In this document: piece by piece, positions 1,078 to 55,697 of the stretch | How positions within the stretch are numbered: position 1 is the first letter of the stretch | How the letters are laid out: the number at the start of each line of letters is the position of its first letter | Origin: Oscillospiraceae bacterium | Lineage (GTDB): Bacteria; Bacillota; Clostridia; Oscillospirales; CAG-272 | Length of the DNA: 64,000 nucleotides | Reading direction: 5' to 3' | Assembly: GCA_015064155.1 (NCBI GenBank) | Contig: SVST01000001.1 | Location: forward strand, 1-64,000 | Position numbers and translations under genes: made by a program | The notes under the pieces: generated by a model | What the model was told of the DNA's origin: nothing | What the model saw: only the letters and a program-made list of their open reading frames with translations | The model's database searches: none

Positions 1078-1809
1078 TCAGTCGTTGTTATCCTCAAACC
1101 GTCCGATTCCGATCAGGGAATCAACGGGAAGCGAAAACAGAACGGCACCGCCGTCGGTTTTCAGTCCTGCATTTTCACGGATTGCTTCCATGATTTTGGT
1201 TTTATACTCGCGAGAGGTCAAAATAGCAATGGTGTCGGTTTCCTGCGTAAAGGTCGTGCCGATCAACTGCTCCGCCTGCTTGTTGTTGACACTGCGCGTA
1301 TGCAGAATGGTGGCACCGGTAGCCCCGGCTGCGCGACTGCAATCCAAAACCTTATCGGTGAATTTTTGATTTACAACGGCTACAACTAATTCGTGCATTT
1401 TATTACGCTCCTTTTCGGGTTGGGAATTTGCGGAATTTTCCGTGATCGTTTCCTCACGGAACGGAGTAGAGAGAATGGCATTGCTGACGATGCTGGAAAT
1501 GCCGGAAAGCGGAATGGTAAAGGCGATTCCGTTTCCGATCAAATACAGCTTGAGTCGACGGTTGATTGCCTTGAGCACGCGCGCTTCACAGTAATTGGGA
1601 ATCAATGCGTAAACAACGCGTTTTTCGATTTCGTCAAGACCGAGATAACTCATGTAGTTGGATTTTGCCGTACCGTAGCCGATGCCGGAAAAGTGCAGGG
1701 TAACTGCGGTTTCTCGGCAGGCGTCTGTCAAATCCATAACGCTTCCTTTTTTGACAATGCAAACCAACAGCTTGGCACGCTTTTCAAAATCAAGTGTTTT
1801 TTTAGCCAT
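1078..1809 (-). CDS. Two fused PII-like regulator domains
   Basis: The 243-residue cytosolic protein contains two PII-like (ferredoxin-like fold) domains, about residues 10-105 and 136-240, joined by a linker of charged residues (QPEKERNK). Domain A carries the pattern GNGIAFTIPLSGI and domain B carries GATGATILHTR and FSLPVDSLIGIG. Each domain matches one of two separate small proteins encoded at 53133-53450 (domain A) and 52809-53117 (domain B). The gene overlaps the upstream DUF1538 transporter gene by 8 bp, so translation is probably coupled. By analogy with GlnK-AmtB and other PII/transporter pairs it is likely to gate the transporter in response to a small ligand. The ligand cannot be read from the sequence. 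Confidence 0.7.
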   Translation of the reverse strand: MAKKTLDFEKRAKLLVCIVKKGSVMDLTDACRETAVTLHFSGIGYGTAKSNYMSYLGLDEIEKRVVYALIPNYCEARVLKAINRRLKLYLIGNGIAFTIPLSGISSIVSNAILSTPFREETITENSANSQPEKERNKMHELVVAVVNQKFTDKVLDCSRAAGATGATILHTRSVNNKQAEQLIGTTFTQETDTIAILTSREYKTKIMEAIRENAGLKTDGGAVLFSLPVDSLIGIGRFEDNND

Positions 1810-3358
1810 GATTTGCCTCCTGTTTTTGTAGATCGAAGAAAGAATCGCCGTAGTCCAATATGATTTCTTGTTCGGTGGTAAAACGGCTGATGGCTTGCTT
1901 TGCCTTCAAGCTGTAGATCAAACCGCAAATTTGAATCGAAATAATCGGGGTCATTGCCACGAAAGCAACGCAACCGAATGCATCGGTCATGACGTTTCCG
2001 CCAAGCATTTCGCAAGCACCGATCGAAAGGGGAAGCACGAACGCACTCATCATAGCACCGCTGGCAACTCCACCCGAGTCAAAAGCAATACCCGTGAAAA
2101 ATTTCGGAACAAAAAACGTCAAAGCAAGCGCAATCACGTAACCGGGAATCAAGATCCACAAAATCGAGATACCGGTCAGAATGCGGAGCATCGAAAGTCC
2201 CAGCGCGGCAGACACACCGACCGATAGAGCCAATCGCATCGTGCCGGCGGAAATTGCACCTGCGGTGATCTGTTCAACCTGCTTGTTCAGCACGTAAACG
2301 GCAGGCTCGGCATTGACGATAAAGTATCCGATTATCATACAAACGGGGATCAAAAGATAGCCGTTTCCAATGTTCGCGATTGAGGTGCCGAGCGAAACAC
2401 CGGCGGGACGGAAGCCCTCGTTTGCTCCGGTCAGGAAGACGACAAGACCAACGAAGGTGTATACGATACCAACGCCGATACGAATGAGCTGCTTCGTGCC
2501 GAACGCACGCGTGGAAAGCTGGAAAATCAGAGCGAACACCATGGTGGGTAAGAGAGCCACCGCAACGTCCTTGGAATGAGAGGCAAAGCTCTGCATATAC
2601 ATATGCATGCCCGTACGAGTGTTGTGGAGTTCAAATTCTTCAAGAATATCCGCAGCACTTTCGGAGGAGCCCGAAAGCGTAAAGCATAACCCGAGAATCA
2701 AAACGGCAAGGATGGGGCCGATGCTGCAAAGGGCAACCAAGCCGAACGAATCCTCATGCTCACCTTTTCGGCTGGCACTCGCTCCGGCAACACCCGCACC
2801 GATCGACATAATAAAGGGAACCGTCATGGGACCCGTGGTAACTCCGCCCGAGTCAAACGCCATTGACCAAAAATCGGAGGGAATGAAGATGCACAAAATA
2901 AATGCCGCGATGTAAAAAAACATCAGAAGGATCGAAAGGGGAATATGAAAGACGATTCTCAGCATGGCGATCACCAAAAAGATGCCAACGCCCAAAGAAA
3001 CGGTTAAAATCAGCACCAAATTGGGAACACCCGCTACCTGTTCTGCGAGGATCTGCAGATCGGGCTCGGAAACGGTTACCAAAATACCGATGATAAAACT
3101 GAGGAAAGCGATCAACCATACTTTTTTTGACTTTGCAAAATAAGAACCGATTTTGTTTCCCAAGGGCTGCATCGACATTTCCGCACCCATGGTAAAGATT
3201 GCCAAGCCTGCAATCAAGGAAAGCACGCCTAAGAGAAACATTACGAAAATATCGGTACTCATCGGAGCAAAGGTGATGCCCAACAGCAAAACGATGGTTG
3301 CAATCGGGATGATCGACGTCAGTGATTCATACAATTTGCCTTTGAATGCAGATTCCAA
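1802..3358 (-). CDS. DUF1538 membrane transporter-like protein (copy 1)
   Basis: A very hydrophobic protein of about 518 residues with about 12 membrane segments and an internal duplication. Each half contains an EP-containing motif (SEPDLQILAEQV, AEPAVYVLNKQV) and later an FDSGG motif followed by a small-residue stretch (FDSGGVTTGPM, FDSGGVASGAM). This is the DUF1538 pattern, a family of unknown substrate. The start is uncertain. An ATG at 3406 overlaps the -10 box of the only good promoter and has no ribosome binding site, so the TTG at 3358 behind AAAGGAG is preferred. A homologue with the same neighbours lies at 53443-55041. Confidence 0.8.
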   Translation of the reverse strand: MESAFKGKLYESLTSIIPIATIVLLLGITFAPMSTDIFVMFLLGVLSLIAGLAIFTMGAEMSMQPLGNKIGSYFAKSKKVWLIAFLSFIIGILVTVSEPDLQILAEQVAGVPNLVLILTVSLGVGIFLVIAMLRIVFHIPLSILLMFFYIAAFILCIFIPSDFWSMAFDSGGVTTGPMTVPFIMSIGAGVAGASASRKGEHEDSFGLVALCSIGPILAVLILGLCFTLSGSSESAADILEEFELHNTRTGMHMYMQSFASHSKDVAVALLPTMVFALIFQLSTRAFGTKQLIRIGVGIVYTFVGLVVFLTGANEGFRPAGVSLGTSIANIGNGYLLIPVCMIIGYFIVNAEPAVYVLNKQVEQITAGAISAGTMRLALSVGVSAALGLSMLRILTGISILWILIPGYVIALALTFFVPKFFTGIAFDSGGVASGAMMSAFVLPLSIGACEMLGGNVMTDAFGCVAFVAMTPIISIQICGLIYSLKAKQAISRFTTEQEIILDYGDSFFDLQKQEANHG

Positions 3359-3404
3359 TTCAACGACAACTCCTTTCAACACTCCCAATAAATCTACGCA
3401 TACC

Positions 3405-3694: not shown

Positions 3695-5068
3695 ATGGAA
3701 ACTGTCATATGGCAGATATTAGTTCAGATTATACTGATTGCGTTGAATGCCTTTTTTGCCGCGTCGGAGATCGCGGTGATCTCACTCAATGAGGTCAAGC
3801 TGAAAAGACAGGCAGAGGAAGGCGATGCGAAAGCAAAGAAAATGTTACGTATGGTAGAGAATTCCACCGGATTTCTCTCCACCATTCAAGTTGGGATCAC
3901 GCTGGCGGGCTTCTTGGGCTCAGCATTCGCGGCCGACGGGTTTTCGGAATATTTGGTTCGCTTTTTGGTGAACACCTGCAAATTGAAAGCACCCGTTTCG
4001 GTGTTGGATACGGTTTCGGTCGTGGTCATCACGCTGGTGCTGTCTTTCTTCACGCTGGTGTTTGGTGAATTGGTTCCCAAGCGCGTGGCAATGAGAAACC
4101 CCGAAAAGCTTGCACGCCGTGTGTGCGGATTTATTTCGGGACTTTCCGTGGCAATGCGTCCCGTGGTATGGCTGCTGTCTGTCAGCACGAACGGCACTCT
4201 CCGCTTGTTCGGCATCAACCCCAAGGAGAATACCGAGGACGTATCCGAGGAGGATATTTTGGATTTGGTCGATGCGGTAGAGGAGCAGGGTGAGATCGAC
4301 TCGGACACCAAGGAAATGATCGAGAACGTGTTTGAGTTTGATAACACCACGGTCGGGGAGATTATGACCAGACGTTCGGATATGCGCGTGCTGTATGAAA
4401 CCGATTCGTCGGAGGAAATCCTACGTACGATTCAGGAAAGCGGTCTTTCGCGTTTTCCCGTATGCGGAGAGGATACCGACGATATCAAGGGAATTGCGCT
4501 TGCACGCGAATACCTGTTCATGGCATACAAGAATCCCGAATGTCGCTTGTCTGACGTGATGCAAAAGGCAAGGTTTGTTCCCGACACGTTGCCGGCAAAC
4601 CGACTCTTCCGCGATATGCGCGACAGTCAGATGCACATGGCAATCGTGGTGGACGAATACGGACAAACCGCCGGTCTTATCACCATGGAGGACCTTTTGG
4701 AATCGATCGTTGGAAATATTTACGACGAAACCGATGAGCCGGAGCTTCCCGAAATTGTGGAGGAGGAACCGAATCATTGGCAAATTGCGGGGATTACGTT
4801 GATTGAGGATGCCGAAAAGGCGATTGGTGTGACCTTACGAACCGAGGAGGGTTCCTACGATACCTTCGGTGGGTTTGTCATCGCCAATTTGGAATATATT
4901 CCGCAGGACGGTGAAACCCCGGAATTTACTTATCAGAACCTTACGGTACGCATCTTGGCGGTAACCGATAAACGTATCGAAATGGCGGAAGTGATCAAAA
5001 CGGAGCCCGAGGAAACGGTGGAACCCGAAGCCTCCGAGCACGGTGAGGGTCACTCCGAACATGAATAA
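3695..5068 (+). CDS. CorC/CNNM-family CBS-domain membrane protein (HlyC-like)
   Basis: 457 residues in the usual order of this family: an N-terminal DUF21/CNNM membrane domain (about 1-190, three to four segments, including PVSVLDTVSVVVITLVLSFF), a pair of CBS domains (about 205-330, MTRRSDMRVL and VVDEYGQTAGLITMEDLLE) and a C-terminal CorC_HlyC domain (about 345-425, IAGITLIEDAEKAIG). Members act in magnesium or divalent cation homeostasis or sodium-coupled efflux; older annotations call them haemolysin C. The tail is strongly acidic and His-rich. It follows a possibly structured leader, which suggests control by an ion or metabolite. Confidence 0.88.
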   Translation: METVIWQILVQIILIALNAFFAASEIAVISLNEVKLKRQAEEGDAKAKKMLRMVENSTGFLSTIQVGITLAGFLGSAFAADGFSEYLVRFLVNTCKLKAPVSVLDTVSVVVITLVLSFFTLVFGELVPKRVAMRNPEKLARRVCGFISGLSVAMRPVVWLLSVSTNGTLRLFGINPKENTEDVSEEDILDLVDAVEEQGEIDSDTKEMIENVFEFDNTTVGEIMTRRSDMRVLYETDSSEEILRTIQESGLSRFPVCGEDTDDIKGIALAREYLFMAYKNPECRLSDVMQKARFVPDTLPANRLFRDMRDSQMHMAIVVDEYGQTAGLITMEDLLESIVGNIYDETDEPELPEIVEEEPNHWQIAGITLIEDAEKAIGVTLRTEEGSYDTFGGFVIANLEYIPQDGETPEFTYQNLTVRILAVTDKRIEMAEVIKTEPEETVEPEASEHGEGHSEHE

Positions 5069-5103
5069 ACCAATAAAAAGCAAGAAACAGAAAGGAATTG
5101 ACG

Positions 5104-6270
5104 ATGGGTGAATTAAGTTTTTTGTACGATAGCTTTGTAATAATGTTTAAACATGATGGTTGGAAAAACGTTATTATGTGGATTATCGGAGGCATTTTGA
5201 TTTACCTCGCGATCAAAAAGGAAATGGAACCAACGCTTCTCTTACCGATGGGCTTTGGTGCGATTTTGGTAAATCTTCCTTTGGCGGATGCGGTTGCAGT
5301 TTTGGGAGAAACACCACTTGGCGGAACCGTGGCAGCACTGCAGGACGGTCCGATCACAACTCTGTATCATGCGGGTATTGCAAACGAGCTTTTCCCGTTG
5401 CTCTTGTTTATCGGTATCGGCGCGATGATCGATTTCGGCCCGTTGCTCAGTAACCCGAAGCTGATGATTTTCGGCGCGGCGGCACAGTTCGGTATCTTCT
5501 TTACCTTGTGCTTGGCATGGATCTTCTTCCCGAACATCAACGACGCGGCATCGATTGCCATCATTGGTGCGGCAGACGGTCCTACCGCGATTGCCGTATC
5601 CGAGGCTCTGAAGTCGAATTATAAGGGTGCGATCATGGTGGCGGCATATTCCTATATGGCGTTGGTTCCCATCATTCAGCCCCCCGTCATCAAGATGATG
5701 ACCACCAAAAAGGAACGCTTGATTCGTATGCCGTATGCGCCCAAGAGCGTTTCCAAGACGACTCGTATTCTGTTCCCGATCGTAATTACGCTGATTGCCG
5801 GTCTGTTCGCTCCCAATGCGGTTTCCTTGGTTGGATTTTTGATGTTCGGTAACCTGATCCGTGAGTGCGGTGTGCTGGATTCTCTGTCCGAAACCGCACA
5901 GAAGACCTTGGCAAACCTGATTACCATCTTCCTGGGCATCTCGATTGCGTTCCAGATGCAGGCGGAAAGGTTCATTTCCTTGGGTACCATCGTTATTTTG
6001 GGCTTGGGTCTGTTCGCTTTCGTATTCGATACCATCGGCGGTATCTTGGTTGCCAAGCTGATCAACCTCTTCTCCAAAAAGAAGATCAATCCCATGATCG
6101 GTGCGGCAGGTATTTCCGCATTCCCCATGTCGGGTCGTATCGTACATAAAATGGGACTGGCAGAGGACCCCCAAAACTTCCTTTTGATGCACTCGATCGG
6201 TGTCAACGTTTCGGGTCAGATCGCATCGGTAATTGCCGGCGGTATGATTTTGAATTTCTTTTTGAAGTAA
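5104..6270 (+). CDS. Sodium ion-translocating decarboxylase, beta subunit
   Basis: The 388-residue polytopic membrane protein matches the OadB/GcdB/MmdB family. It has about nine to eleven membrane segments and the conserved GAADGPTAIAVS loop (about residues 153-164), whose Asp takes part in coupling decarboxylation of carboxybiotin to sodium export. The second half carries GAAGISAFPMSGR. ATG 5104 was chosen because AAAGGA lies 7 bases upstream; a TTG six bases earlier is worse. It lies 35 bp after the CorC-like gene and 36 bp before a gamma-like gene. No carboxyltransferase alpha subunit or biotin carrier is nearby, so those must be encoded elsewhere. Confidence 0.92.
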   Translation: MGELSFLYDSFVIMFKHDGWKNVIMWIIGGILIYLAIKKEMEPTLLLPMGFGAILVNLPLADAVAVLGETPLGGTVAALQDGPITTLYHAGIANELFPLLLFIGIGAMIDFGPLLSNPKLMIFGAAAQFGIFFTLCLAWIFFPNINDAASIAIIGAADGPTAIAVSEALKSNYKGAIMVAAYSYMALVPIIQPPVIKMMTTKKERLIRMPYAPKSVSKTTRILFPIVITLIAGLFAPNAVSLVGFLMFGNLIRECGVLDSLSETAQKTLANLITIFLGISIAFQMQAERFISLGTIVILGLGLFAFVFDTIGGILVAKLINLFSKKKINPMIGAAGISAFPMSGRIVHKMGLAEDPQNFLLMHSIGVNVSGQIASVIAGGMILNFFLK

Positions 6271-6696: not shown

Positions 6697-7143
6697 ATGA
6701 ACATGGAAAAAAAGACCTATAAACGCTTTGCGGAGGCGCACGCGCCGCGTTCCCCCATCCTCAAAAACTGCTTCAACGCTTTTTGGATCGGCGGTATGGT
6801 TTGCCTGATCGGACAGATTTTGCGCACCGTTTACATGGACGTGTGCGGACTTCCCCCGGAGGACGCAGGGACACTGACGTCGGTGACGTTGATTTTTGTA
6901 ACCGTTGCTTTGACCTGCCTTGGATGGTTTGATAAGATCGCAAAGGTGGCGGGAGCCGGCACGATCGTTCCGATCACGGGCTTTGCCAATTCGGTTGTTT
7001 CGCCTGCCATCGATGCACAAGCCGAGGGACGGATTTTAGGAGTCGGGGCAAAGATTTTTACCATTTCGGGTCCCGTGCTGCTTTACGCAGTGCTTGCCGG
7101 CGCAATATACGGGAGCATCTACTACGTCGTGGGACTTTTTTAA
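6697..7143 (+). CDS. spoVAC: Stage V sporulation protein AC
   Basis: 148 residues, four predicted membrane segments. The family signature AGAGTIVPITGFANS is at about residues 83-97, and VGAKIFTISGPVLLYAV follows. SpoVAC sits in the inner membrane of the forespore and, with other SpoVA proteins, moves dipicolinic acid into the spore; it also behaves as a mechanosensitive channel. The length fits the family. The usual partners spoVAD and spoVAE do not follow: the next gene is a capsule phosphatase behind its own promoter. It may be an orphan copy or the locus may be split. No clear sigma-G promoter was recognised. Confidence 0.92.
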   Translation: MNMEKKTYKRFAEAHAPRSPILKNCFNAFWIGGMVCLIGQILRTVYMDVCGLPPEDAGTLTSVTLIFVTVALTCLGWFDKIAKVAGAGTIVPITGFANSVVSPAIDAQAEGRILGVGAKIFTISGPVLLYAVLAGAIYGSIYYVVGLF

Positions 7144-15904: not shown

Positions 15905-16167
15905 AAAAACAAAACCGCCTCATAGCACAGCCATGAGACGGAAATATCCGCGGTACCACTCATATTCGCCGCAAAGCGCGGCGCACCTTATCGGAGGCAA
16001 AACCTCCCGTGCTTTAACGCAGCCATACGAATATACCTACTTGACACGTGCGTTCGGCATATCAACTCGGAAGTGATTTCACAGAAAAAGTACCAACTGC
16101 ACGCTTCCACCTTGCGCGTGCTCTCTGTAAGCTTTCCTTTTTCGGAGCTCTTCGTCAACATTTTTAC
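15905..16167 (-). promoter_or_regulatory. T-box leader of ileS (specifier ATC)
   Basis: The leftward strand contains the T-box core GAGTGGTACCGCGG near 15949-15962 and a terminator stem (CCGTCTCAT with ATGAGGCGG, 15915-15941) followed by a T/G tract. The specifier codon is ATC (16075-16077 read leftward), after GAA and about 90 bases from the start. Uncharged tRNA-Ile should promote antitermination. Confidence 0.93.
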
Positions 16168-32644: not shown

Positions 32645-32842
32645 GCAAGCTCGGCGGTTTTGGACCGGGATGTCGCAGGTTCAAATTCTATTAGAAAATA
32701 TAATATCATACTTCGGGATGTAGCGCAGTTGGTATGCGCGTTGCCTCGCAAGCTCGGCGGTTTTGGACCGGGATGTCGCAGGTTTAAATTCTATTAGAAA
32801 ACATAATATCATACTTCGGGATGTAGCGCAGTTGGTAGCGCG
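32645..32842 (+). repeat. Two tandem decayed tRNA-Pro repeats (103-bp period)
   Basis: A segment of about 95 bp starting GCAAGCTCGGCGG occurs at 32645 and again at 32748, differing at only a few positions. Each unit has tRNA-Pro-like D-arm (TAGCGCAGTTGG) and T-arm (GTCGCAGGTT) sequence, but the anticodon arm is altered by an insertion and the 3' acceptor strand has become CTATTAGAAAA. No CCA is present. They appear to be non-functional copies in front of the intact tRNA-Pro at 32817, sharing its 5' end. Confidence 0.7.
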
Positions 32843-32892
32843 CCTGGTTTGGGACCAGGATGTCGCAGGTTCAAATCCTGTCATTCCGACCA
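32817..32892 (+). tRNA. tRNA-Pro (anticodon TGG)
   Basis: A complete cloverleaf: acceptor CGGGATG/CATTCCG, D-arm GCGC...GCGC, anticodon stem CCTGG/CCAGG with loop TTTGGGA (anticodon TGG), T-arm GCAGG/CCTGT with loop TTCAAAT, and an encoded CCA. It is the only intact copy in this cluster. Confidence 0.95.
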
Positions 32893-49233: not shown

Positions 49234-50544
49234 TTAAATCAGCTTGCGCTTGTCGATTACGCGAACAGCCTTGCCTTCGCTTCTTGCGATGGTCTTGGGC
49301 GGAACAAGATGTACCGCGGGATTGATGCCGAGCATCGTTTTCATAGCACCTGCCAGCGATTTTTCCATTGCCATGATATCGCTGACCTTATCCGTGAACA
49401 TTTCGGTCGTCATTTCCACGTTTACGTCAAAGGTATCGTTGTTCTTAACTCTGTCAACCACGATCTGGTAGTTGGGTTGATAGCCCTCGTTCAAAAGAAC
49501 GGTTTCGATCTGGCTCGGGAAGACGTTTACACCGCGGATGATCAGCATATCGTCGGTTCTGCCCATGGGCTTCGCCATCTTAATCAAGGTTCGTCCACAA
49601 GAGCATTTCTTACGCGAGAGGACGCAGATATCGCGGGTACGGTAACGGAGAAGCGGGAAGGCTTCTTTGTCCAGAGAGGTGAAGACCAATTCACCCTTGC
49701 TGCCCTCGGGAAGCACCTCACCGGTTTCGGGATCGATGATCTCTGCATAGAAGTGGTCCTCGTTGACGTGCATACCGGTCTGCTCACAGCATTCAAATGC
49801 AACACCGGGACCGCTGGTTTCGGTCAGACCGTAAATATCGTATGCCTTGATACCAAGGGTTGCTTCGATGCCACGGCGCATCTCTTCGGTCCAGGGCTCT
49901 GCACCGAAGATACCTGCCTTCAGCGGAATATCCTCGGGCTTATATCCCATTTCCTTAAGGTTCTCGCCAATGTATGCCGCATAGGAGGGGGTACAGCAAA
50001 GAATGGTTGCGCTCAGGTCGGTCATAAACTGAATCTGACGCTCGGTGTTACCCGAGGACATCGGAAGCGTCAAGCAGCCAACTTTATGGGAGCCGCCGTT
50101 GAGTCCGGGACCGCCGGTGAAAAGACCGTAGCCGTATGCCACCTGACAAACGTCCTTTTTGGTTCCGCCTGCCGCCATGATCGCGCGGGCGCAGCAATCC
50201 TCCCAAAGGTCAACGTCGTGCTGGGTGTAGAATGCCACAACGCGTCTTCCCGTGGTTCCCGAAGTGGACTGAATGCGGACGCACTCGTCCAGAGGCTTTG
50301 CCAAAAGACCGTAAGGATATGCATCGCGCAGATCGGCTTTGGTGAGGAAGGGAAGCTTGCAAAGATCTTCGATTCCATGGATATCCTCGGGGCGAACGCC
50401 CTTTTTGTCCATGAGATCGCGATAGTAGGGGACGTTTTCGTAAACGTGCTTGACCTGCTTGACCAGCTTTTCCGATTGGAGCTTTTTCAGGTCTTCAACA
50501 GGCATTGTTTCGATTTCTTTTTGGAAGTAATTTTGCTGTGCCAT
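49234..50544 (-). CDS. paaK: Phenylacetate-CoA ligase
   Basis: 436 residues, cytosolic adenylate-forming ligase. The ATP motif is STSGTTGRRVV (about 91-101), with later IYGLTETSGPG (about 234-244), RTRDICVL and the C-terminal domain signature GRTDDMLIIRGVNVFPSQIE (about 321-340). The Cys-rich loop LSRKKCSCGRT is present in this anaerobic group. It makes phenylacetyl-CoA (or indoleacetyl-CoA or another aryl-CoA). It is the first gene after the Phe T-box leader. The start MAQQ was chosen because AAAGGA is 11 bases upstream; an earlier ATG overlaps that site. Confidence 0.94.
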   Translation of the reverse strand: MAQQNYFQKEIETMPVEDLKKLQSEKLVKQVKHVYENVPYYRDLMDKKGVRPEDIHGIEDLCKLPFLTKADLRDAYPYGLLAKPLDECVRIQSTSGTTGRRVVAFYTQHDVDLWEDCCARAIMAAGGTKKDVCQVAYGYGLFTGGPGLNGGSHKVGCLTLPMSSGNTERQIQFMTDLSATILCCTPSYAAYIGENLKEMGYKPEDIPLKAGIFGAEPWTEEMRRGIEATLGIKAYDIYGLTETSGPGVAFECCEQTGMHVNEDHFYAEIIDPETGEVLPEGSKGELVFTSLDKEAFPLLRYRTRDICVLSRKKCSCGRTLIKMAKPMGRTDDMLIIRGVNVFPSQIETVLLNEGYQPNYQIVVDRVKNNDTFDVNVEMTTEMFTDKVSDIMAMEKSLAGAMKTMLGINPAVHLVPPKTIARSEGKAVRVIDKRKLI

Positions 50545-50605
50545 TTTGTGTTTCATCCTTTCTTGTGCTTTTCGCTTTTGTGCTTTTGTTCGGAGCGAGA
50601 ACCGC

Positions 50606-50888
50606 AAAACAAAACGTCCTCTGCATTCCGAAAAGAATACAGAGGACGAGAAATACAATCCCGTGGTACCACCTCAGTTCGCCGCCACCTCACGGTGACG
50701 ACCTTTTCAGGTACTATCATACCCCAGTTCTGTAACGGGAACACCCGTTGCATCCTACTACGGATTTCTCCGATTCAGCGCACTGCTAACAGAATGAATT
50801 CGAGATGGACGCCCCCATTGCCTCGCACCAACCGGCAACTCTCTCCAGGTTCTTTCCAACCTACTGGTTTCTGCTCCTCGCATTTACT
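50606..50888 (-). promoter_or_regulatory. T-box leader of the paaK operon (specifier TTC, phenylalanine)
   Basis: The leftward strand contains the T-box core GAGGTGGTACCACGGG near 50659-50674 and a terminator stem CGTCCTCTG/CAGAGGACG (50615-50648) followed by TTTTGTTTT. Aligned to the Ile and Trp leaders of this window, the specifier codon is TTC (50796-50798 read leftward), after GAA and about 90 bases from the start. This predicts induction when tRNA-Phe is uncharged. Confidence 0.88.
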
Positions 50889-52742: not shown

Positions 52743-52777
52743 AAAGCGGGGAAAACCGTATTGGCTCTCCCCGCTTT
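52743..52777 (-). terminator. Terminator of the second DUF1538/PII operon
   Basis: AAAGCGGGGA (52743-52752) pairs perfectly with TCCCCGCTTT (52768-52777); the leftward strand continues into TTTTC. Confidence 0.8.
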
Positions 52778-52808: not shown

Positions 52809-53117
52809 TCAATCGCCGATGGTGAGCGTAGACATTTCTACCGGCAAAAAGAAGCAAAGTCCGTGTGCGTTGGTTCCAACACCCGCTTTTTCTTGAATTG
52901 CTTCGGCAATTTTAACGGCAATTTCTTTTTCAACGACGCTGAGAACGATTTCTTTTTCCGTATCAATCGTAATTCCAAGAATGGTTTTCGGCTTGGCAAC
53001 CGAGCCTCGTGCGTTAATAATGGTAGCTCCCGTTGAACCGAGAGAACGGGCAATTTCGACAACCTCCGAGGAGAATCCCGCGTTTACAATGATATAAAGT
53101 GCTTTCAACTCTTTCAT
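52809..53117 (-). CDS. PII-like regulator protein, B type
   Basis: 102 residues, single PII-like domain. It begins MKELKALYIIVNAGFSSE and carries GSTGATIINARG (about 27-38) and GLCFFLPVE (about 90-98). It corresponds to domain B of the fused protein at 1078-1809 (GATGATILHTR and VLFSLPVD). AAGGAG lies 7 bases upstream of the ATG at 53117. It is the last gene of the operon. A trimer with the A-type protein acting on the DUF1538 transporter is the simplest model (inference). Confidence 0.7.
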   Translation of the reverse strand: MKELKALYIIVNAGFSSEVVEIARSLGSTGATIINARGSVAKPKTILGITIDTEKEIVLSVVEKEIAVKIAEAIQEKAGVGTNAHGLCFFLPVEMSTLTIGD

Positions 53118-53132
53118 ATACAATCTCCTTTC

Positions 53133-53450
53133 TTAAAATGCCAAGCCCTCTACCGAAACGCTGAATGCGATTCCGGTGTTGGGTTTGTCGAAGTGGTAGT
53201 CCCGATAAAGCACGTGGAGCAGCTCTCTTGCCTTGTCGTTTCGGAGGAGGCAGGAGATCATCACCTTTGCCTGTACCGCTTCCAATCCAAAAGCGGCGGC
53301 GATCGCGCGCGGACTCATAGAGCCATGCGCGTACACGGTTTCTATACCGCGCGCACCGTATTCGTCAAGAAGTGCTAAAAACTTTTTCTTTTTCTTATGC
53401 TCCGCAATAATGACGAAATATTGCAGACCGTTTATCTGTACGTCACGCAT
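53133..53450 (-). CDS. PII-like regulator protein, A type
   Basis: 105 residues. LQYFVIIAEHKKKKKFLALLDE near the start and NTGIAFSVSVEGL (about 90-102) match domain A of the fused protein at 1078-1809 (RAKLLVCIVKKG and GNGIAFTIPLSGI). The ATG at 53450 overlaps the end of the DUF1538 gene by 8 bp, exactly as in the first copy. The Lys-rich loop KKKKKF (about 17-22) is distinctive and could contact an acidic partner or membrane surface. Confidence 0.7.
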   Translation of the reverse strand: MRDVQINGLQYFVIIAEHKKKKKFLALLDEYGARGIETVYAHGSMSPRAIAAAFGLEAVQAKVMISCLLRNDKARELLHVLYRDYHFDKPNTGIAFSVSVEGLAF

Positions 53451-55041
53451 GACCGAGTCCCTCGCTTTCTTTGGAATTTTGTTTGCGGTAAGCCGCTTGT
53501 GCCTCTGCAACGAAGCGTTCAAGATCCTCAACGGTTTCTTTTGCGGTTTTAGCGGCGAGCTTCAGTCGGATATTATAAATGATACCCAACGCTTGAATTG
53601 CAATCAGGGGAGTGACAGAAATAAAGGATATAATGCCGAAGCCGTTGGTGAGGATGGATAAGACACCGCCGCGCGCCTCGGCAACCGCTTGCGCAATGCT
53701 TAACGTAAGAGGCGTCAGGAATGCCGAGGTCAGGGCACCGCCCGTAACTCCGCCCGAATCAAATGCCAATTCCACGAAGAGCTTTGGCGTAAAGATCATC
53801 ATCACCAGCGAGATCGCATACAGCGGAACGAGAAACCAAAGAATGTTTACCTCGGTTAAGATTTTCAGAATGGAAAGCAGGGAAGCAAAGCCGATGCCGA
53901 TTGCCAGGGTCAGACGAATGGTCAGCTTTTTGATGTGACCGTTGGTTAATTCTTCGATCTGATCTCCCAGCACCGTTACGGCAGGCTCGGACACCGTGAT
54001 TGCCGCGCCCAAAATGAAGCCAACGAGTAAGAGTAACCATTTAAAGTTTTCGGGACGTGACGGAGAGACGAACATCTGCCCGATATACTGTCCCACGAAT
54101 CCAAAGCCAAAATCAATTCCCGAAAGGAAAATCAACAATCCAACGTATACGGGAATAACACCGAACATCAGCGTCAAAAAGGTTCTTTTTGGGAGCTTGA
54201 GAAAGGCAAGAAGAAACGGAATCGATATGAAAATGATGGGAAGCACCGCCAGGGCAACGTCAGCAAGATTTCCGAGCACGATATCTCCCAAGCCTTTTTC
54301 CGAGATCATGTTATACGCGTGTTCGGGGGGAAGCGTTCCACCGTTTGACGCTTTTGCGATGATGCCGTAAATCAATACGGCGACGATGGGACCCACCGAG
54401 GAGATTCCAATGATTCCCAGGGAGTCGTCGTTCGTTTTACTTTTGGAAAAGGTTGCGGAAATACCAAGACCGAGTGCCAAAATAAACGGGACCGATACGT
54501 CACCCGTGGTTGCACCGCTGCCGTCGAACGCAAGAGCAATAAATTCCTTGGGAGAGAAGATCACGAGCAGAAAGACCGATAGATACAAAATTGCAAACAC
54601 AAGCTTGATATTGATATTTTTCACGATTCGTACCAGTGCGATTGCCACACCGATTCCGATACCCGTACCGGTGATCCAGATGAACAGCGTGCTATTCACC
54701 AGCGGCATGATGCCGCCGATCTGCTTTGCAAGCACCGAAAGAGCCGGCTCCGCAACCGTGGCAAGCAAACCGAAGACGAATCCGAAGGACAGCACGAAGA
54801 AGAGCTTATTGTATTTGGCAAAGGATCCTCCCACCATTCTGCCGATCGGCAGAATACTTGTTTCAAGACCCACGAGAAACATCGCCTGACCCAGTACCAC
54901 GCAACCGTATCCCGCGATAATTTTGACATAATCACTACCCGATGGAAGCGGTGTGATCAATAAGCAGATCACGATGATTGCGACCAAGGGAAGAGATGAA
55001 TAAAAGGTTTCTTTTACGGTTTGAAAAAACTTGGTTTTCAT
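53443..55041 (-). CDS. DUF1538 membrane transporter-like protein (copy 2)
   Basis: 532 residues, about 12 membrane segments and an internal repeat: AEPALSVLAKQI then FDGSGATTGDV in the first half, SEPAVTVLGDQIEEL then FDSGGVTGGAL in the second. The first copy at 1802-3358 has the same features. The ATG at 55041 follows AAAGGA and overlaps the ECF S gene by 4 bp; the long upstream frame runs antisense into that gene's codons and is not used. Two PII-like proteins follow in the operon. The transported solute is unknown. Confidence 0.82.
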   Translation of the reverse strand: MKTKFFQTVKETFYSSLPLVAIIVICLLITPLPSGSDYVKIIAGYGCVVLGQAMFLVGLETSILPIGRMVGGSFAKYNKLFFVLSFGFVFGLLATVAEPALSVLAKQIGGIMPLVNSTLFIWITGTGIGIGVAIALVRIVKNINIKLVFAILYLSVFLLVIFSPKEFIALAFDGSGATTGDVSVPFILALGLGISATFSKSKTNDDSLGIIGISSVGPIVAVLIYGIIAKASNGGTLPPEHAYNMISEKGLGDIVLGNLADVALAVLPIIFISIPFLLAFLKLPKRTFLTLMFGVIPVYVGLLIFLSGIDFGFGFVGQYIGQMFVSPSRPENFKWLLLLVGFILGAAITVSEPAVTVLGDQIEELTNGHIKKLTIRLTLAIGIGFASLLSILKILTEVNILWFLVPLYAISLVMMIFTPKLFVELAFDSGGVTGGALTSAFLTPLTLSIAQAVAEARGGVLSILTNGFGIISFISVTPLIAIQALGIIYNIRLKLAAKTAKETVEDLERFVAEAQAAYRKQNSKESEGLGHA

Positions 55042-55589
55042 GACGGTTCCTTTCGTTGGATTTCTTTCCCTTTCACGGATTGGAGCAGGATGACAAGCGG
55101 CGGAATGAAAACAAGCTGTATGACGATTCCCGGAATTGCATTGGTAACGGCACCTGCAAGAAATGCTGCAAACGTAAAGCTTCCGCCACGAGTTCCCGCG
55201 CAAATAAACATTGCCGCCCCCCAAATGAGTCTGCCAACCGTCATAGCTGTAAAAAGAGAAACCAAGACAAAGGGCTTCTTCTTGGGAAGATAGCGATGCA
55301 ACAAGCCCGCTACGCACCCGTAAGCCGCCAACTCAAACGCCATACAAACCGCCATAGGATAAAAAACTGGCAAGCCGAGGGTAATCGAACGCAAAATCGG
55401 TGCAATCGCTCCAACCGCCAGACCCCAAAACCAACCGCAGATAAATCCGCACAGCAGTACGGGCAGATGCATGGGGCAAAGCATGGAGCCTATTTTGGGG
55501 ATTTGTCCGGTCAGAAAGGGAACACAATAGGCAAGAGCCAAAAAAAGTGCCGCAAGAACCATATTTGCTGTTTTGCTTTTGTTTCTCAT
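55038..55589 (-). CDS. ECF transporter S component-like membrane protein
   Basis: 183 residues with five to six membrane segments. LAYCVPFLTGQIPKIGSMLCPMHLPVLLCGFICGW (about 20-54; key features GQIP, PMHLPV) and LGLPVFYPMAVCMAFELAAYG are the pattern of ECF S components with a PMH motif, which bind a vitamin and use a shared EcfA/EcfT module. No ECF module is adjacent. It heads the operon and overlaps the DUF1538 gene by 4 bp, which is unexpected for a vitamin transporter. About 75 bases of leader precede it. Confidence 0.75.
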   Translation of the reverse strand: MRNKSKTANMVLAALFLALAYCVPFLTGQIPKIGSMLCPMHLPVLLCGFICGWFWGLAVGAIAPILRSITLGLPVFYPMAVCMAFELAAYGCVAGLLHRYLPKKKPFVLVSLFTAMTVGRLIWGAAMFICAGTRGGSFTFAAFLAGAVTNAIPGIVIQLVFIPPLVILLQSVKGKEIQRKEPS

Positions 55590-55668: not shown

Positions 55669-55697
55669 ATTGTAACACAAGAATCTGTATAAATCAA
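55669..55697 (-). promoter_or_regulatory. Promoter of the second DUF1538/PII operon
   Basis: Leftward TTGATT (55692-55697), 17-base spacer, TACAAT (55669-55674). Confidence 0.75.

Follow-up and report, generated by a model that had tools for sequence, protein, structure and literature searches.

PII proteins are trimers that bind a nucleotide between their subunits. Two transporters, AmtB and SbtA, are gated by ligand-dependent docking of such proteins, GlnK and SbtB respectively, and the PII-like SbtB is encoded beside SbtA. GlnK is likewise encoded beside AmtB, the transporter that it controls (PMC3831643). Adjacent but unlike PII paralogues, NifI1 and NifI2, are both required to switch off a single target, nitrogenase (PMC9765008). 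In a different setting, the small subunit Cas11b is produced by internal in-frame initiation within cas8b (PMC11899642). Only one member of the DUF1538 family is described as characterised in the literature searched: UmpAB of Halomonas zhaodongensis, a two-gene Na+(Li+,K+)/H+ antiporter (PMC5484666). It is active in E. coli from a 4.2-kb clone in which the last listed ORF is umpB, which implies that PII is dispensable for activity, and the main text of that paper has 0 occurrences of "PII" (PMC5484666). No PII partner for DUF1538 or UmpAB was found in the available text of PMC5484666, PMC12093952, PMC10030654, PMC5996927, PMC6055358 and PMC7221264. The literature on PII with transporters and antiporters shows other systems; most subscription papers and preprints fell outside its scope, so that this absence is weak.

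The window analysed here, a 64,000-nucleotide stretch of DNA from an Oscillospiraceae genome, carries two DUF1538 operons (Table 1). Their transporters, T1 and T2, resemble UmpAB in Pfam family and in having two homologous halves, but the halves are fused, the scores lie under the equivalog cut-offs, and PII partners are present. Like AmtB-GlnK and SbtA-SbtB, operon 2 places a PII or PII-like gene next to a transporter; it differs in that the transporter belongs to an unrelated family (DUF1538, with no Amt or Sbt) and in that an A/B pair takes the place of one PII gene. NifI1/NifI2, encoded within a nif cluster, is the closest precedent for a neighbouring pair of unlike PII proteins such as A2 and B2. 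Here, however, the target would be a membrane transporter, A and B frequently share one gene that contains an internal start signal, and no nif genes occur among the neighbours examined (SSF, PaaK-like, ECF-S and an ABC-type ORF). The fused protein AB1 and its predicted product, free B1, recall cas8b and Cas11b in placing a small subunit inside the gene of its larger partner; the system is a different one, and B1 is predicted from sequence only. If PII gates DUF1538 exchangers, the cell would have a direct link from its energy or carbon-nitrogen state to the control of cations and pH. UmpAB was characterised from a clone without a described PII gene, though DUF1538 is matched in 116 of 299 sampled genomes from Pseudomonadota and 102 of 291 from the same class as the source.

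The two operons and their proteins

Table 1. Features of operons 1 and 2 and their surroundings, in window coordinates
Feature	Position	Strand	Evidence
AB1, fused PII-like protein, two domains, 243 aa	1078..1809	-	AF2 fold; P-II 23.6 bits, second half only
Internal AAGGAG (1408-1413) + 9 nt + in-frame ATG (1396-1398), domain B start	1396..1413	-	Predicted internal start
T1, DUF1538 transporter	1802..3367 (longest ORF to 3433)	-	PF07556 E 6.8e-130
CNNM/CBS/CorC_HlyC membrane protein, divergent from T1	3695..5068	+	Profile search
OAD_beta, Na+-pumping decarboxylase beta subunit	5098..6270	+	PF03977 E 1.3e-148
Terminator-like hairpin, 15 pairs, immediately 3' of B2	52743..52777	-	Consensus scan
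B2, B-type PII-like protein, 102 aa	52809..53117	-	P-II 27.5 bits
Shine-Dalgarno AAGGAG of B2	53125..53130	-	Sequence
A2, A-type PII-like protein, 105 aa	53133..53450	-	Start 8 nt within T2
T2, DUF1538 transporter with two domains (UmpAB family), 532 aa	53443..55041	-	PF07556 x2
ECF transporter S component	55038..55589	-	PF12822 51.9 bits; 4-nt overlap with T2 start
Promoter-like TTGATT-17-TACAAT, TG ahead of -10	55669..55697	-	Consensus scan

Sequence and profile searches bear out the predicted layout of operon 2 as a single minus-strand unit of T2, A2 (overlapping by 8 nt) and B2, the last separated from A2 by 15 nt and preceded by its own AAGGAG. The overlap between T1 and AB1 is also 8 nt. 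The ECF S-component gene is probably on the same transcript as T2 in this genome because it overlaps the T2 start; no tblastn match to it was found at 1e-10 in related T2 loci. Four neighbour genes of operon 2 gave 0 matches at 1e-10 in 9 related T2 loci (flanks 0-5 kb), and a conserved neighbourhood for operon 2 was rejected on this search. In consensus scans the region has 9 terminator-like hairpins against 5.7 +/- 2.5 in shuffles, and 5 promoter-like sites against 4.2 +/- 2.0, which makes the latter no evidence on their own. Rfam places nothing above the gathering score beside T1 or T2, and riboswitch control of either transporter was rejected on that basis. Two T-box leaders lie in the window, at 15931-16167 (-; 109.2 bits) and at 50639-50887 (-; 105.6 bits), the latter upstream of a phenylacetate-CoA ligase-like gene (49234-50658).

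The surroundings of operon 1 recur among relatives. OAD_beta has a tblastn match in 16 of the 18 T1-type loci searched (12 of 14 distinct), and the CNNM/CBS/CorC_HlyC gene in 12 of 18 (8 of 14 distinct). The conservation of OAD_beta beside operon 1 would fit a role in sodium handling. A SpoVAC/SpoVAEB-like gene of a sporulation membrane family (6697-7143, +) and a tRNA-Lys (315-390, -) are also close to operon 1; a tRNA-Pro is at 32817-32892 (+).

DUF1538 (PF07556, cut-off 22.6 bits) is the sole Pfam family above cut-off on T1 and T2, with two domains in each and scores of 431.1 bits for T1 and 366.7 bits (E 3.5e-110) for T2. The NCBIfam models for UmpA and UmpB (NF041627/NF041628; pH-dependent Na+(Li+,K+)/H+ exchange) each align to both proteins in two stretches, giving 175.6/140.6 bits for T2 (UmpA E 1e-51) and 163.3/113.5 for T1, far under the equivalog cut-offs of 490/500 bits. 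A UmpA equivalog over the cut-off, sought so as to look for PII next to a near copy of the characterised gene, occurred in 0 of 40 and 0 of 398 genomes. Since T1 and T2 score so low, the transported ion may differ; by analogy with UmpAB, T2 is probably an antiporter of Na+ or K+ against protons. The AF2 model of T2 (mean pLDDT 79) has 20 helices. T2 has no match among PDB sequences at E 10, and its Foldseek matches, none under E 0.001, are mixed (MATE, CLC, INDY, EAAT). The acidic residues E98, D173, E352 and D428 of T2, two per repeat, are the same in T1. Lysine plus arginine counts per loop, compared between repeats, differ in the expected sense at three loops (2.50 vs 0.90, 2.18 vs 1.13, 1.90 vs 0.21) and in the opposite sense at two (0.44 vs 0.65, 0.20 vs 0.59), and are at most suggestive of an inverted repeat topology.

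Against the P-II cut-off of 25 bits (PF00543), B2 scores over (27.5) while A2 (24.2) and AB1 fall just under; the single-PII relatives L016, L018 and L133 reach 43-46 bits. Both halves of the AF2 model of AB1 have the PII strand order, beta-alpha-beta-beta-alpha-beta, at a mean pLDDT of 60.5, with 107 of 243 residues at 70-90 and the linker (103-136) under 50. The model covers AB1, and A2 and B2 would adopt the same fold. In Foldseek against the PDB, the top matches of AB1 are other ferredoxin-like proteins, and GlnK structures rank 41, 46 and 50. A profile built from 19 of these PII-like proteins retrieves PII structures (best 9p1x_H, 7.5e-10); A2 by itself retrieves no PDB chain at E 1. PDB 9p1x contains 12 chains of the chain-H PII and 6 of another PII (chain G a weak match, E 0.76), and its chains are presumably NifI1/NifI2, judging from sequence and these counts. 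The source assembly (86% complete) has no further P-II match, and so A2/B2 and AB1 look like dedicated regulators.

DUF1538 and PII across genomes

Survey loci were picked by transporter alone from a non-random set in which some positive genomes were left unfetched. They comprise 178 clusters, 170 of them distinct by transporter. The pairing with PII is near-universal in the loci sampled: PII-like domains are present in 164 of the 170 distinct clusters, from several phyla, and in 39 of 40 from Pseudomonadota. In four PII-less clusters (L085, L093, L105, L108) the transporter is cut by the contig end, and in L274 just 87 bases remain past the transporter stop. L246 is a full cluster of two separate DUF1538 halves, genuinely without PII; its genome, G484, has a second cluster, L247, with PII. 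The same HMMs gave no PII matches away from the transporter in the first 158 clusters. Among 398 Pseudomonadota genomes, the best 12 UmpA-like loci all have PII, 9 of the 12 genomes having already been surveyed. The DUF1538-PII pairing is widespread yet seems undescribed.

If H denotes a DUF1538 half and P a PII domain, the layouts among the distinct clusters are HH-PP (68), H-H-P (40), HH-P-P (32), HH-P (7), PP-HHP (6), HHP (3) and rarer forms (n = 170). Separate genes for the two PII proteins, as in operon 2, are no rarity, with 32 HH-P-P clusters beside 68 HH-PP. A single PII is the rule in the sampled Pseudomonadota (34 H-H-P and 4 HH-P of 40 clusters). Of the 120 Clostridia-side clusters, 77 encode A and B as a single fused chain. 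The transporter itself carries a fused PII domain in L017 and in the 6 PP-HHP loci. L017 (Sulfurimonadaceae) is of the HHP form, and Pfam sees two DUF1538 domains and P-II within one chain; two other HHP loci, L264 and L267, start 145 and 125 bases from a contig end, and an upstream PP gene is possible there.

Some rarer arrangements were also seen. In L133 and L158 a gene for one DUF1538 half stands ahead of one PII gene, an arrangement that may reflect a dual-topology homodimer ancestor. L127 (1099-3247) has a transporter followed by a PII ORF that starts within the end of an A-like domain; A seems broken and B intact. L252 has an HH-P operon followed by a P-H-H cluster on the same strand.

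Ancestry of A and B and the predicted internal start

A and B are an old pair, as the original prediction held. A2 groups with domain A of AB1 in a single clade (99/98) that takes in all 22 A domains and leaves out the B and single-PII domains. This tree omits the rows of six loci with long branches or odd positions (L152, L200, L201, L252, L017, L134). When these six are kept, A requires 4 changes; several A sequences are long-branched. The contrary arrangement, in which A and B of one operon are each other's closest relatives, is not the best tree for either operon. The AU test rejects it in operon 1 (p-AU 0.014) and does not reject it in operon 2 (p-AU 0.174). A quick tree put A2 beside Nitrospina PII domains, a placement flagged as long-branch attraction and discarded, since careful trees put A2 in A. 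In two Nitrospina-group MAG loci of the HH-P-P form (L200, L201), both PII domains pair together, apparently an independent doubling of PII beside a fused transporter.

The transporter trees, proposed as the check for co-duplication, went the other way. A clade of T1 plus T2 is rejected (p-AU 0.0047), which excludes a recent co-duplication of both operons. The T2 type is one deep branch of 10 loci, including that of the window, with varying neighbourhoods. The two systems may plausibly serve two solutes or two conditions, since a second fused DUF1538 gene is also present in 5 of the 7 named genomes that have the T2 type.

In the AB1 gene, the AAGGAG and in-frame ATG stand right at the start of domain B, and initiation there is predicted to yield free B1 of 106 aa. 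By a strict motif list, an ATG with a Shine-Dalgarno sequence occurs at the B start in 16 of 16 T1-clade fused genes and 23 of 47 others, which include two PP-HHP genes (39 of 63 in total). Signal strength was also scored as the duplex energy with the anti-Shine-Dalgarno, at thresholds of -5 and -6.5 kcal/mol. Among the 71 fused genes without a transporter PII, an ATG is present near the B start in 63, and in 57 it is combined with a duplex at least as strong as -5 kcal/mol, a level reached by 32.8% of control internal ATGs of transporter genes (n = 1625). At -6.5 kcal/mol, 84% of the B starts (53 of 63) pass, compared with 11.8% of the controls. This comparison is tilted to the B starts by choice of the best ATG, as 27 of the 71 genes offer several candidate start codons. 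Synonymous resampling gives a null mean of -5.6 against the observed -8.2 kcal/mol (mean z -1.17; p < 0.05 in 7 of 63 genes), and this null accounts for part of the signal. In the T1 clade, AAG-GAG encodes the lysine-glutamate pair at this site in 12 of 15 genes, where 29% would be expected (p 7e-5, with kinship ignored). The linkers of fused genes are otherwise unalike across deep divergence. PP-HHP genes have the ATG and Shine-Dalgarno at the B start in 0 of 6 cases (Fisher 1.6e-4 vs 57 of 71, kinship ignored); these six loci are related and may represent one loss event. Their extra PII domain, domain C, which is fused to the transporter, groups with B domains (88%; quick tree, five of the six loci).

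Proposed gating of the transporter by PII

The preferred reading, to which a probability of about two in three is given, is that T2 of operon 2 is a secondary cation/proton antiporter of the UmpAB type, uniting both halves in a single chain, and that it is gated by its dedicated PII regulators A2 and B2. Speaking for it are the near-universal gene pairing, the natural fusions of PII with the transporter, the known antiport by UmpAB, OAD_beta near operon 1, the lack of any other P-II match in the assembly, and the PII strand order and profile matches of the PII-like proteins. The PII domains of A and B would assemble as a heterotrimer and dock on the cytoplasmic face of the transporter. The docked trimer would then open or close it in response to a small ligand in the cytoplasm, which is probably an adenine nucleotide. 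The composition A1B2 is favoured because the internal start is present in most fused genes and missing from the PP-HHP genes, whose domain C groups with B; PP-HHP systems and fused AB genes could each supply the three subunits that a PII trimer requires, one of type A and two B-like. Counting against the preferred reading are the activity of UmpAB in E. coli from a clone whose listed ORFs stop at umpB, the low UmpA/UmpB scores of T1 and T2, L246 as a full cluster without PII, the score of A2 under the P-II cut-off and its lack of a PDB match when used alone, and the low rank of GlnK structures among the Foldseek matches of AB1. A bolder generalisation, put forward tentatively and at somewhat less than even odds, extends PII gating of cation/proton exchange to the DUF1538 antiporters as an entire class. 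The gate in Clostridia would be an asymmetric A1B2 trimer, with the third subunit supplied by a separate B gene, by an internal start in AB, or by a B-like domain on the transporter chain. If so, AB and free B would neatly exemplify a fused regulator whose trimer is complete only when translation also begins inside the gene.

GlnK acts on further targets besides AmtB, and the PII-like proteins might mainly relay signals in the cytoplasm, to enzymes or gene expression, being merely co-transcribed with the transporter. The source genome has no other P-II match, and these proteins could therefore act as its general PII; that T2 and A2 overlap by 8 nt secures co-expression only. Such a relay role is nonetheless improbable, since L017 and the PP-HHP loci join PII and transporter in one protein and the pairing extends over 164 of 170 clusters in several phyla. 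Control by PII could also be real and the antiporter label not transferable, the substrate being, for example, an organic anion or a divalent cation. The distance of T1 and T2 from the UmpA/UmpB cut-offs, their status as old, distinct lineages and the weak, mixed Foldseek matches of T2 all lean that way. Such a substrate is still judged unlikely in view of the four acidic residues identical in T1 and T2 and of OAD_beta near operon 1 in relatives.

The make-up of the trimer admits alternatives as well. A and B might form two separate homotrimers, or B alone might bind the transporter with A as a degenerate modulator; a homotrimer suffices for the 38 of 40 Pseudomonadota clusters with a single PII, and several A sequences are long-branched. 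The A-B fusion seen in 77 of 120 Clostridia-side clusters and the grouping of the PP-HHP domains C with B, which fits 1 A to 2 B, make these alternatives doubtful in turn. Somewhat more credible, though still on the less probable side, is that the internal ATG and Shine-Dalgarno are unused, as relics of once separate genes or by-products of a purine-rich linker. Synonymous resampling alone covers part of the signal, the choice among several start codons favours it over the controls, and the strict motif list finds it in 39 of 63 genes only. Working against such unused signals are the excess over control ATGs at -6.5 kcal/mol, linkers otherwise dissimilar over deep divergence, the absence from all six PP-HHP genes and the AAG-GAG preference of the T1 clade.

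As to the ligand of the proposed gate, c-di-AMP was considered for the family as a whole and is unlikely, a DAC protein scoring above cut-off in 15 of 38 DUF1538-bearing Pseudomonadota genomes (19 at E 0.001). The source genome carries a DAC protein, and in Clostridia c-di-AMP is a possible ligand.
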